NCBI GenBank assembly: GCA_902594405.1
Contig: CACJMB010000003.1
Location: 1 to 64,000, forward strand
Length of the DNA: 64,000 nt
Origin: an uncultured Pelagibacteraceae bacterium
Lineage (GTDB): Bacteria > Pseudomonadota > Alphaproteobacteria > Pelagibacterales > Pelagibacteraceae
Reading direction: 5' to 3'
Below the pieces are notes generated by a model. The model was given only the letters and a program-made list of their open reading frames with translations. It had not been told where the DNA came from and ran no database searches. A program made the translations under genes and the position numbers. How positions within the stretch are numbered: position 1 is the stretch's first letter; every line of letters begins with the position of its first letter. Of this stretch, positions 35,881 to 39,965 are shown one piece after another.

Positions 35881-37371
35881 ATGAAGTTATTTTTTATACT
35901 TGGTAATCAATTATTTCCAACAAAATACCTAGACCGCTTCAAAAAAGACCACCTATTTTTTATGGCTGAAGATAAGGGTTTATGCACTTATGAAAAGCAT
36001 CATAAACAAAAAATTTTATTATTTTTATCTTCTATGCGTTCTTATGCAGACGGATTAAGAAAAAACAAATTTAAATTAGATTACTTTAAAATCGAAGATA
36101 AAGAATTTAATGAAGATTATTTAAAAAAATTAAAAAAAATAATTACACAAAAAAAAGTAAAAGAAATTTCAAGTTTTGAAGTTGAAGATAAATTTTTTGA
36201 AAAAAAAATTTTACAATTTTTTAAAAAAGAAAAAATAAGCTGGAATATTGTTCAAACTCCTATGTTCTTAAATTCAAGAGCTGAATTTAAAAATTATTTA
36301 TCAAAATCAAAAAAACCTTTTATGGCAACTTTCTACAAAGATGTTAGAAAAAAATCTGGAATATTGATGGGTTCAGATGGTAATCCAATCGGGGGCAAAT
36401 GGAGCTTTGATGAAGATAACAGAAATAAATTACCTAAAAATATTTCAATTCCTAAATTTCCAAAAATAAATGAAACCAGTCACACAAAAAAATTAAAGCC
36501 TATTATTGAAAAGGAATTTAAAAATCACCCAGGGAGTACAAATAATTTTTGGTTTGCAACAGAATACGAAGATGTAGTTAAACTTTTAAATTTTTTTATA
36601 AAAGAAAAATCAAACTTATTTGGTGATTATGAGGATGCAGTTGATCAAAAAGATAATATTTTGTTCCATAGTGCATTAAGTCCTTATATAAATTTAGGTT
36701 TAATTACTCCTGAATTTGTTATCCAAAAAGTTTTAGAATTTCATAAGAAAAATAAAATTAGAATGAATTCTTTAGAGGGCTACATCCGCCAGGTGATTGG
36801 TTGGCGAGAATTTATGCGTGGAATTTATCAGTCTTATTCACAAGAAATGGAAACTGGAAATTTTTTTAAACAAAATAGAAAAATGAAAAGTTCTTGGTAT
36901 GATGGTACCACTGGTCTTCCACCTTTAGATTATGCAATTAAAAATGCTGTTAATCACGGTTGGTCACATCACATTGAAAGATTAATGATCTTATCAAACA
37001 TAATGAACCTTTGTGAGTTAAAGCCAACAATTGTTTACAAATGGTTCATGGAGATGTTTGTAGACTCCTCAGATTGGGTAATGGTTCCAAATGTATATGG
37101 GATGGGATTATTTAGCGATGGAGGAACTTTTGCAACCAAACCTTATATTTGTGGATCTGCATATTTTATGAAAATGATGGACTTTAAGAAAGGTGATTGG
37201 TGTAACATTATGGATGGTCTTTATTGGAGATTTATTGACCGAAATAGAAAATTTTTTTTAAAAAATCCTCGTTTGTCAATGATGGTAAGAATATTTGATA
37301 AAATGAAATCTGATAGAAAAAAATTAATTTTATCTGAAGCTGATAAATTTATTAAACTAAATACAATTTGA
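35881..37371 (+). CDS. Photolyase/cryptochrome of the FeS-BCP (PhrB-like) group with incomplete cluster site
   Basis: A 496-residue flavoprotein. The N-terminal antenna-type domain opens [14 protein letters not shown], as in the Lrp/PF04244 group. The catalytic FAD domain includes [47 protein letters not shown] and [24 protein letters not shown]. PhrB-type (6-4) photolyases bind a [4Fe-4S] cluster with four Cys. Here C378 (NLCEL) and C441 ([11 protein letters not shown]) match the first and last, but the C-x-x-C pair between them is missing, with a shortened loop. It likely repairs UV lesions or senses light. DUF2256 follows with overlapping stop and start. Confidence 0.88.
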
Positions 37372-37504: not shown

Positions 37505-38224
37505 GTGAACATAATAGTATTACAACATATCAAAATAGAAGATCCAGGTTACATTAAAGATTTAATGTTAGCTGATGGATTTAACTTAACTACCATTGAG
37601 TTAGATGAAGGTAAAAAAATACCAGACGATTTAAGTAAATTTGATGGAATGTTTTGTATGGGAGGTCCAATGGATACCTATATGGAAGAAGAATATCCTT
37701 GGTTAATAGAAGAAAAGAAAAGAATTAAAGAATTTGTTGTAGATTTAAAAAAACCCTATTTAGGTTTTTGTTTAGGTTGTCAGCTTTTAGGAGAAGTAGT
37801 TGGTGGAAAAGTGGTCAAATCTAAACCAGCAGAAATAGGGATTATGGATATTAATTTTTCTAATGAAAAAAACGAAGATAAACTATTTTCAAAATTTCCT
37901 AATACGATTAAAAGTTTACAATGGCACTCTTATGAAGTTCAAGGTATTGAAAATAATAAAGATGTAACTTTATTAGCTTCTTCCCCAATCACTAAGTATC
38001 AAATCTTTAAATATCAAAACCATGCTTATGGAATTCAATTTCATATAGAAATAAAAGATACCACGGTCAATGAGTGGGGGTGTGTTCCAGAATACAAAAA
38101 AGCTTTAGAGGATCAGCTTGGTAATGGTGCATTAGAGAAGTTTGATCAATCTGCAAAAGATAACATGAAAGATATGAATAACTATTCTACAATCCTTTAT
38201 AATAATTTTAAAAAACTTTTATGA
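37505..38224 (+). CDS. Type 1 glutamine amidotransferase-like protein
   Basis: A 239-residue stand-alone class-I GATase domain resembling the GuaA glutaminase part. The nucleophile Cys is in LGFCLGCQLLGEVVGG, MGGPMDTY is the oxyanion strand, and QFHIEIKD gives the His and Glu. The start is GTG 37505, with no better ATG before the first strand IIVLQHIKIEDPG. Such proteins hydrolyse glutamine for an unknown acceptor, or gamma-glutamyl amides. It overlaps the small membrane protein by 4 bases. Confidence 0.87.
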   Translation: MNIIVLQHIKIEDPGYIKDLMLADGFNLTTIELDEGKKIPDDLSKFDGMFCMGGPMDTYMEEEYPWLIEEKKRIKEFVVDLKKPYLGFCLGCQLLGEVVGGKVVKSKPAEIGIMDINFSNEKNEDKLFSKFPNTIKSLQWHSYEVQGIENNKDVTLLASSPITKYQIFKYQNHAYGIQFHIEIKDTTVNEWGCVPEYKKALEDQLGNGALEKFDQSAKDNMKDMNNYSTILYNNFKKLL

Positions 38225-38442
38225 ATAATAAGATCTTTGAATGGGCAGGGGTTATAACTGCAATATTATATTCTTTGTTTGTTGCTTTAAATATAGGAAT
38301 AGAATTTTTTGGTTTTTGTCTATTGCTTTTGTCAGCTATTTTAATTGGAATTTGGGCTTATAGGGGTGGTCATAAAGGAATTTTATTATTACAATTTTTT
38401 TATGCAACAGCTGGAATTATTGGGATGGTTCGTTGGTTTTAG
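38221..38442 (+). CDS. Small three-helix membrane protein, unrecognised
   Basis: A 73-residue hydrophobic protein with helices at about 7-25, 28-46 and 52-70. The end GHKGILLLQFFYATAGIIGMVRWF resembles small conserved proteins found beside photolyase or PnuC-type genes, but I cannot name the family. It overlaps the GATase end and converges on the second photolyase-like gene by 4 bases. Confidence 0.7.
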   Translation: MNNKIFEWAGVITAILYSLFVALNIGIEFFGFCLLLLSAILIGIWAYRGGHKGILLLQFFYATAGIIGMVRWF

Positions 38443-39578
38443 TTAAAAGTCGAAACTATTTTGGGAATATAATTTTTAAAATTAAAAAATCCTTTATTGC
38501 AGTATTGCCAAGCCAATTGATCAAGATTTCTATATAAAAAATCTATCTTTAAATTATTCGAATTTAAAAAATCTAAATTTTCACCTACTGTTGGATATAA
38601 ACCATAACAATTTTCAATTTTTGTTAATTCACTTATATCTACAACCTGGCAATCAATAGATTGATTTTTTAATCTTTGCTCTTGGTCTTCTATTAAATGA
38701 GATTTAAATTTCACTAATTTTTCACTGAGTTTTATTGTTCTATTTTCATTTTTATTAGAAACTAAGTAAATATTTTTAAAATTATTTTCTTTAAAGTCAG
38801 TGATTTCAAACGAAAGATTATTTTCAAAAATTAAAAGATTTTTTTCTTCAATATTTTGCGGGTTATTGAAATCTTGTTTAATTATTTGGTAAGATTTTTC
38901 AGATATTTTGGGAGGAGCATTTTCATTTAATTTTATATTTTGAAATCTATTGTTAGTAAATTTTTTGATATTCCATTCAGTTGCAAGGTAATGTTTTCCT
39001 TGCGTTTGGATACCTGCAACCCATCGCCACCCAAGAGTATTTGATGCAGCATCTCCATCATAAAGATGTTGCATGAAAAATTCTGCACCTAATTGCCATG
39101 GTAATTCTAAAGTAAAAATCCAAACACTAGCAAACCACATTCTAGTGTGATTATGTAAATAGTTGTTCTCCTTAAGCTCTTTTACCCACTCATTAAAGCA
39201 ATCTATGTTTGTTTTTCCCTCAATTGCATTAAGATAATTTTGATTATTTTGAAATTCATTTTTTATTTGATTTAGTTCAACAAGATAATCTGTCCAAACA
39301 TTTGGTCTTAGTTCTAACCAACCTTTCCAGTAAGTTCGCCATAGAACTTCTTGAATAAACTTTTCATTTTTTGAAAAAGAAAGTTTACTCAGCGCTTTCT
39401 GAATGACTTCTTGTTCATTAATTATTCCATGAGTTATATATGGCGATAAGCAAGATATATTAGATCTTTTTTCAGGCCCAAAATCAAAATTTCTTAATTT
39501 TGAATATTCTCCAAGATTATTATCAACAAAATTATTTAACTGATTTAAGGCCTTGGCCCTTGAAGCTTCAAATATCAT
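38439..39578 (-). CDS. Photolyase-like FAD-binding protein with unusual domain order
   Basis: A 379-residue protein that begins directly with the photolyase FAD domain: CLSPYITHGIINEQEV (43-58), FIQEVLWRTYWKGWLELRPN (74-93), HNHTRMWFASVWIFTLELPW (142-161) and DGDAASNTLGWRWVAGIQT (174-192). These are the FAD- and DNA-contact motifs of class I photolyases. The N-terminal antenna domain is absent. Instead residues ~245-379 form an alpha/beta-like region beginning NLLIFENNLSFEITDF. The function may be light sensing, repair or neither. Confidence 0.8.
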   Translation of the reverse strand: MIFEASRAKALNQLNNFVDNNLGEYSKLRNFDFGPEKRSNISCLSPYITHGIINEQEVIQKALSKLSFSKNEKFIQEVLWRTYWKGWLELRPNVWTDYLVELNQIKNEFQNNQNYLNAIEGKTNIDCFNEWVKELKENNYLHNHTRMWFASVWIFTLELPWQLGAEFFMQHLYDGDAASNTLGWRWVAGIQTQGKHYLATEWNIKKFTNNRFQNIKLNENAPPKISEKSYQIIKQDFNNPQNIEEKNLLIFENNLSFEITDFKENNFKNIYLVSNKNENRTIKLSEKLVKFKSHLIEDQEQRLKNQSIDCQVVDISELTKIENCYGLYPTVGENLDFLNSNNLKIDFLYRNLDQLAWQYCNKGFFNFKNYIPKIVSTFN

Positions 39579-39584
39579 TTAAAA

Positions 39585-39965
39585 TTATTTTGATTTTTTT
39601 TTCTTTAGACCCAATTTGTCACTATGTCTTAATCTTAAAACAACAATTGCTCCAGCGATTAATAAAATTGCAACTGCTTCATAAACAAGTGCAGTAGGGT
39701 CCATTTCTTTACCTTGCAAAATAATAAATCGCGCTAGTGCGGTAATTGCAATAAGAAGTGGAAGGGTAATACTTATAGATTGTTGGCTCCAAAAAACTCT
39801 TACCATTGCTAAAACTTCTAAATATAGAAACATTAAAAGTAAATCTGCTAGCGTAACTGATTGGTTAGTGAACATGTTTTTAATTTCAATCCCAACAGCA
39901 ATAACCGTACTGATTAATATAATAACCATTAAAGCTAATTGTAAGTTTTTCGCTATCTTGTCCAT
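39585..39965 (-). CDS. PsiE-like membrane protein
   Basis: A 126-residue protein with four helices. LLLMFLYLEVLAMVRVFW and the later ISITLPLLIAITALARFIIL match the phosphate-starvation-inducible PsiE family. A basic tail (RHSDKLGLKKKKSK) follows the last helix. Its biochemical role is not known, and no Pho-box-like sequence was seen. It overlaps the upstream membrane gene by one base. Confidence 0.8.
   Translation of the reverse strand: MDKIAKNLQLALMVIILISTVIAVGIEIKNMFTNQSVTLADLLLMFLYLEVLAMVRVFWSQQSISITLPLLIAITALARFIILQGKEMDPTALVYEAVAILLIAGAIVVLRLRHSDKLGLKKKKSK

Follow-up and report, generated by a model that had tools for sequence, protein, structure and literature searches.

Several described photolyases carry the FAD domain in front of a second domain. 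The NewPHL class is credited to Emmerich et al. 2020 by two papers (PMC13274461, PMC9426592). The former presents NewPHLs and SPLs as enzymes that repair CPDs in ssDNA and ascribes to them an "inverted domain topology" (PMC13274461). According to PMC9426592, Phr7 has its FAD domain at the N-terminus and, at the C-terminus, a Z-domain that represents a short photolyase domain of atypical kind; class members from two alphaproteobacteria were active on CPDs in ssDNA, and the split Phr4/Phr5 and fused Phr6 forms of marine Synechococcus/Cyanobium have a "reverse domain order". The class of SPLs (Xu et al. 2021) is described as a proposed ancestor of the photolyase family in three papers (PMC9178010, PMC9649867, PMC9498864).

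The 379-aa protein encoded in the window, i.e., the whole stretch of 64,000 nucleotides of an uncultured Pelagibacteraceae bacterium (SAR11) that was analysed, very probably belongs to this known NewPHL/Phr7 class, an assignment made by architecture and published description, with a protein of Ruegeria sp. TM1040 as sequence proxy for the assayed proteins of Dinoroseobacter shibae (A8LJA9) and Methylobacterium mesophilicum (M7YZC8). The reversed order is real, but as an arrangement it had been described before: it rediscovers a class known since 2020. Literature searches listed no account of a SAR11 member, although one may stand in texts that pair photolyase and SAR11. The gene is divided as follows:

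38439..39578, minus strand: reversed-order photolyase gene (NewPHL/Phr7 type), ATG start, 379 aa, stop codon included
38943..39578, minus strand: N-terminal catalytic FAD domain as predicted, residues 1-212 (Pfam, PDB alignment, site-residue mapping)
38847..38942, minus strand: linker, residues 213-244, replacing the canonical C-terminal FAD-domain helices (alignment; very low AF2 confidence)
38442..38846, minus strand: Rossmann-like domain at the C-terminus (residues 245-379), the counterpart of the NewPHL/Phr7 "Z-domain", predicted antenna-type fold (model, profiles)

The open reading frame 38439-39578 was uninterrupted. Pfam assigned residues 74-198 to FAD_binding_7 (E 8e-18); with an E limit of 1 it listed neither DNA_photolyase (PF00875) nor DPRP (PF04244). 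This bears out the sequence-only reading, which had located class I FAD motifs in the first 200 residues and noted the absence of the antenna domain before them. Immediately upstream of the gene no antenna domain was present either, a PsiE-family gene being located there instead. Solved photolyases covered approximately residues 7-197 (1dnp, E 7.7e-18); the last 135 residues had no PDB sequence match at E up to 10 and no Pfam family, Usp included, at E up to 1. PDB chains matched by a 24-row family profile ended mostly near position 190-206, with one weak match, 8ijy, extending to 224. Since these matches end before the C-terminal domain, no solved chain of the PDB copy searched matches this domain by sequence.

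Class I CPD photolyases have an N-terminal PF00875 domain followed by the FAD domain, and the (6-4)/FeS-BCP type starts with a DPRP domain (PF04244); the 379-aa protein has neither order, the latter being present in the neighbouring gene at 35881-37371. In SPLs with an FeS cluster a cysteine motif follows the FAD motifs and the protein ends there. The only cysteines of the SAR11 protein were at positions 43, 127, 310, 324 and 360, and an FeS-type motif (CxxC...CP after the FAD motifs, as in several SPLs) was absent. With NewPHLs, as described in print, it shares the N-terminal FAD domain without a preceding antenna domain, the separate small C-terminal domain thereafter and the alphaproteobacterial membership; the CPD-site residues are kept in it. 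Phr7 of Prochlorococcus also has the FAD domain first and a C-terminal Z-domain, and FeS cysteines, which PMC9426592 does not report for Phr7, are absent in the SPL pattern from the SAR11 protein as well, but Phr7 is cyanobacterial and is likened here by description. Phr4+Phr5 and Phr6 have the same succession of FAD domain and antenna-type domain; according to PMC9426592 they retain four cysteines for an FeS cluster, and their DNA photolyase domain is still recognisable, whereas the SAR11 protein is without FeS cysteines and its C-terminal domain is too diverged to be recognised by Pfam. The SPLs of this survey, short forms of about 245-295 aa, differ as a separate clade with the antenna-like domain in a separate downstream ORF. 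Class I photolyase PhrB of E. coli (1dnp) has in common the FAD domain, in which the FAD and CPD residues and two of the Trp chain can be aligned, but has the antenna domain first, the C-terminal FAD helices and the distal W306.

In our view the protein is highly probably a NewPHL/Phr7-class photolyase of reversed order, with an FAD half that splits CPDs and a rear half that is a diverged relative of the antenna domain. The N-terminal half would bind FAD, and the light-excited reduced FAD would donate an electron for the splitting of cyclobutane pyrimidine dimers. The C-terminal half may pack on the FAD domain and close the cofactor site, probably without an antenna pigment. By analogy to the two class members with ssDNA activity in the literature, the SAR11 protein would repair CPDs in ssDNA.

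The nature of the C-terminal half was studied by structure prediction. In the AlphaFold2 model of the whole protein (mean pLDDT 63), residues 134-234 were below 50 and residues 240-379 were better. Strands were predicted at 247-251, 270-274, 311-314, 324-327 and 346-348, helices at 286-305, 333-340, 351-360 and 364-378, the same strand-helix alternation that had been read from the letters. Modelled alone on 46 rows, residues 231-379 reached a pLDDT of 79.6 and a pTM of 0.75 and formed a Rossmann-like fold, a five-stranded alternating core with two final helices. Comparison of this model with solved structures by VIA-align yielded the N-domain of 8ijy as top match (Z 8.1, rmsd 2.7, 104 aligned), followed by 3zxs (Z 7.9) and 7ykn and 8a1h (both Z 7.5), all (6-4) photolyase N-domains. 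The strand order was shared, model positions 15-120 superposing on 8ijy 2-124. Hence this model is not a fold unrelated to the Rossmann-like photolyase N-domain. Foldseek gave no match for the domain at E 0.001 or better; 8a1h was at rank 9 (E 0.046, TMq 0.47).

The structural ranking bears on the alternative that survives best: the C-terminal domain could be an unrelated Rossmann/HUP domain, e.g., a universal-stress-protein-like one, fused independently to an antenna-less photolyase. Universal stress proteins (3hgm, Z 7.2) and 7ufp (Z 7.4) lie less than 1 Z below the leading photolyase and so tie with it, and by VIA-align's own warning Z values at such a level can reflect a common arrangement. 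Photolyase N-domains nevertheless took ranks 1-4 and eight of the 12 first entries. Moreover, the succession of an FAD domain and an antenna-like domain occurs also in other bacteria (for the forms treated there, also PMC9426592), which argues against an independent fusion.

Profile-profile comparisons were performed by hhalign with column shuffles as control. Alignment A3 comprised 19 of the 24 class loci L111-L134, the window protein and four relatives; the larger C-terminal set was drawn from 24 plus 26 of 29 loci, of which hhalign kept 45 of 50, and alignments A4 and A5 used 64 and 45 of 80 loci, respectively. The class I antenna set contained 23 of 30 loci, the Usp set 19 of 30 and the split-partner set nine of ten, others having been dropped as pattern misses. 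The relationship emerged stepwise. Pelagibacterales-side domains (11 rows) matched the other alphaproteobacterial domains (13 rows) with P 1.5e-16 over 139 columns. The latter matched a bridge set of 14 reversed-order or split antenna domains with P 1.8e-6 over 126 columns, a score reached by none of 150 shuffles, and still with P 2.6e-5 over 127 columns without a doubtful Persicobacter row. The bridge set in turn matched canonical class I antenna domains with P 1.1e-8 (1.5e-9 without Persicobacter; 0/100 shuffles as high). A direct comparison of the whole C-terminal set with class I antenna domains was not significant (P 0.043, reached by 4/200 shuffles); the larger C-terminal set gave P 0.011. 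The Pelagibacterales subset alone did not match the bridge set (P 0.47, or 0.39 without Persicobacter). Reversed-alignment controls had P 0.045 or worse, and the IF-2B control gave no match (P 0.17 and 0.2).

The missing direct link to class I speaks for an unrelated HUP domain, as does the weak Usp similarity: P 0.0066 over 44 columns for the whole set (0/200 shuffles as high), while the Alphaproteobacteria subset had P 6.6e-4 over 51 columns. The bridge set itself matched Usp with P 1e-5, but over 37 columns only; a common HUP-type motif thus contributes. Against this stands the match of the Alphaproteobacteria subset to reversed-order antenna domains over nearly the whole domain, above all 150 shuffles. 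We consider an independently fused HUP domain unlikely. The C-terminal domain is probably a diverged antenna-type domain, connected by a chain of links and not by one strong link. The profile comparison to photolyase N-domains suggested at the outset gave a link through the bridge set and no significant one in the direct class I test. Of the initial proposal, a circular permutation that moved an antenna-like domain to the C-terminus, the relocated domain is supported by fold and profile chain. As about 75 canonical residues after the last FAD motif are without recognisable equivalent before the new domain, "reversed domain order" is a better description than a strict permutation. At the level of sequence this provides an argument that the C-terminal domain of the NewPHL/Phr7 class may be a relocated, diverged antenna domain.

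Two further candidates were discarded. A specific tie to the DPRP-type antenna of (6-4) photolyases was indicated by the whole set (P 5.2e-5, 0/200 shuffles) and by the top structural matches. The tie was lost when the set was divided, with P 0.095 for the Alphaproteobacteria and P 0.0035 for the Pelagibacterales rows, thus no antenna subclass is claimed as source of the C-terminal domain. A circular permutation within the alpha/beta domain was ruled out by the collinearity of structural and profile matches.

Site residues of the FAD half were mapped through the alignment with E. coli photolyase (1dnp), whose residues Y222, S235, S238, E274, W277, R278, N341, M345, D372, D374, N378, W359, W382 and W384 we take to be FAD/CPD-site or Trp-chain residues, among them E274, W277, N341, M345 and W384 presumably as CPD contacts. 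The counterparts Y25, S45, E77, W80, R81, N143, M147, D174, D176, N180 and W184 were invariant in 24/24 family rows and 65/65 Pelagibacteraceae rows. S42 (S235) and W186 (W384) were conserved in all 65 Pelagibacteraceae rows and in 23 of the 24 family rows each, with one T and one Q, respectively. Two members of the Trp chain, W184 (W382) and W161 (W359), were likewise invariant (24/24 and 65/65 rows). At the distal position (E. coli W306), the 65 SAR11 rows had F, L or Y, and the position was variable or gapped elsewhere; this sets the SAR11 version apart from NewPHLs, the assayed ones being known here by description. Flavin photoreduction would proceed through W184 and W161 and, because the distal Trp is not conserved, then through other residues. 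W148 and W153, which are invariant as well, could represent an alternative electron exit route. Due to the conservation of the FAD- and CPD-site residues, light-driven CPD repair is the likely function of the SAR11 protein.

The neighbourhood contains a second photolyase-related gene:

35881..37371, plus strand: DPRP/(6-4)-type photolyase-related gene of canonical order, with FAD_binding_7 behind the DPRP domain (residues 5-225); a separate protein
39585-39965: PsiE-family membrane protein gene, 6 bases from the photolyase gene, before its start (Pfam)
38221-38442: 73-aa membrane ORF, tail to tail with the photolyase gene, 4-base overlap at the stop codon

Beyond the photolyase stop follow, tail to tail, the 73-aa membrane ORF, a GATase-like gene and the (6-4)-type gene, which thus lies within about 2 kb of the reversed-order gene, tail to tail. 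The (6-4)-type gene was found in 76 of 80 Pelagibacteraceae loci. Among the loci of more than 13,000 bases it was present in all 58, with at least 82% identity and a coverage above 0.93, usually on the opposite strand and at most three genes from the reversed-order gene. Its presence in 58/58 long loci characterizes a conserved neighbourhood of two photolyase-related genes. The reversed-order photolyase belongs to the presumed UV-repair set in many SAR11 genomes, beside the (6-4)-type photolyase gene. The 73-aa membrane ORF was present in 75 of the 80 loci of relatives.

Another full-length photolyase is encoded elsewhere in the own genome (C2:182658-183206). Together with the adjacent (6-4)-type gene it could already supply repair, and cryptochromes share the FAD domain, so that the SAR11 protein might serve as a blue-light sensor instead of a repair enzyme. 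The five residues aligned to the CPD contacts are, however, kept in 65/65 Pelagibacteraceae rows, and class members act on CPDs in ssDNA according to PMC9426592; a sensor function appears quite improbable.

Of the 37 genus genomes (the source genome among them), 23 carried essentially full-length copies without stop codons, as did two of the 24 genomes from a sister family within the order, there with 51-53% identity; several of the genomes are incomplete. Two further genomes of the genus had a piece only, residues 247-378 in G016 and residues 1-79 in G007. Near relatives in named genomes came from Pelagibacteraceae (SAR11) single-cell genomes and MAGs. In a class-wide draw of 289 genomes, 25 had a match of the reversed-order type (233 bits or more) and ten others a short FAD-only relative. 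A phylum-wide draw of 397 genomes yielded full-length matches in 32, all of the own class; five among the matches listed were from other classes and covered the FAD domain only, with the genomes G502, G593, G635 and G381 left out of closer reading. The protein of Ruegeria sp. TM1040, which shares its order with Dinoroseobacter, had 33% identity to the SAR11 photolyase over the full length. The C-terminal domain of all 24 ORFs L111-L134 of the class-wide draw ended in a G(F/Y)F motif, and the conserved C-terminal motif was GFF-x-FK-x-x-IP. Viral or phage copies were not confirmed by tblastn in viral_contigs, pattern matches numbered 0, and no phage record covered 80% of the query.

In a midpoint-rooted tree, in which bootstrap values were not settled and four of 28 DPRP loci were entered, the FAD domains of the 24 reversed-order rows formed one clade (support 100/100) apart from 30 class I, ten SPL and four DPRP rows; the ten SPL rows formed a clade with support 98/92. 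The survey of homologues for domain order, proposed with the initial observation, showed the reversed order to be kept across Alphaproteobacteria, and among these homologues none had the region 245-379 as a separate known domain. Copies in 23/37 and 2/24 genomes without stop indicate that the reversed order is neither chance nor a damaged gene. The missing N-terminal domain of ordinary photolyases might point to an assembly artefact or to an ordinary photolyase that is truncated or decaying. This reading is refuted by the conserved architecture, with the same length and order in the genus and in other alphaproteobacterial families, the C-terminal motif and the clade separate from class I, and retains practically no probability.

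The survey also provided observations on the SPLs. In all ten SPL-bearing alphaproteobacterial genomes of the class draw (289 genomes), the short FAD-only SPL directly preceded an antenna-like ORF, and the SPL stop and the ORF start often overlapped. Three further SPLs of the phylum draw, in G692, G702 and G672, had such an ORF downstream, the short protein of G702 being known from the phylum-draw match only. On a plasmid of Deinococcus sp. QL22 the pair was split, and its second ORF bore the annotation "hypothetical protein"; a fused reversed form was carried by three other Deinococcus plasmids (antenna HMM E 1e-25 to 1e-27). In these fused forms the FAD domain was followed by a CxxC...CP cysteine motif and then by a rear antenna domain that could still be recognised. 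The positions in the respective loci were:

L135:1034-1429, L136, L138, L139:2139-2600, L171-L177, L308-L310, L312, L303:3163-3684: antenna-like ORFs after SPLs
L301:2390-3760, L302:2411-3829, L304:1351-2724: fused reversed-order Deinococcus photolyases

As SPLs adjoin an antenna-like ORF in 10/10 genomes, they may be enzymes encoded by two genes and not primitive forms with a single domain. This bears on the published idea of SPLs without antenna domain as possible ancestor of all photolyases: with the ORF behind them, the lack of the domain becomes a weaker argument for their primitive state. The findings suggest one enzyme of two domains that occurs in split, rear-fused and canonical arrangements. 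For a wider scheme we see even chances: the antenna domain would occur in three arrangements, in front, as separate gene behind, or fused behind (NewPHL, Phr6, some Deinococcus), the SAR11 C-terminal domain would be a worn-down descendant of the split or rear antenna, and SPLs would be two-subunit enzymes.

Some related proteins had other C-termini. In G673 (L311) a longer SPL-like protein had a C-terminal extension unrecognised by the antenna HMMs, as had the SPL-like protein of Persicobacter at L298:2363-3538; the extension of the second Persicobacter protein (L305) was matched with E 5e-5 only. A DPRP-type region at G085:C1:818569-819212 contained stop codons inside one match and is possibly a decayed gene; the same genome keeps a split SPL pair.
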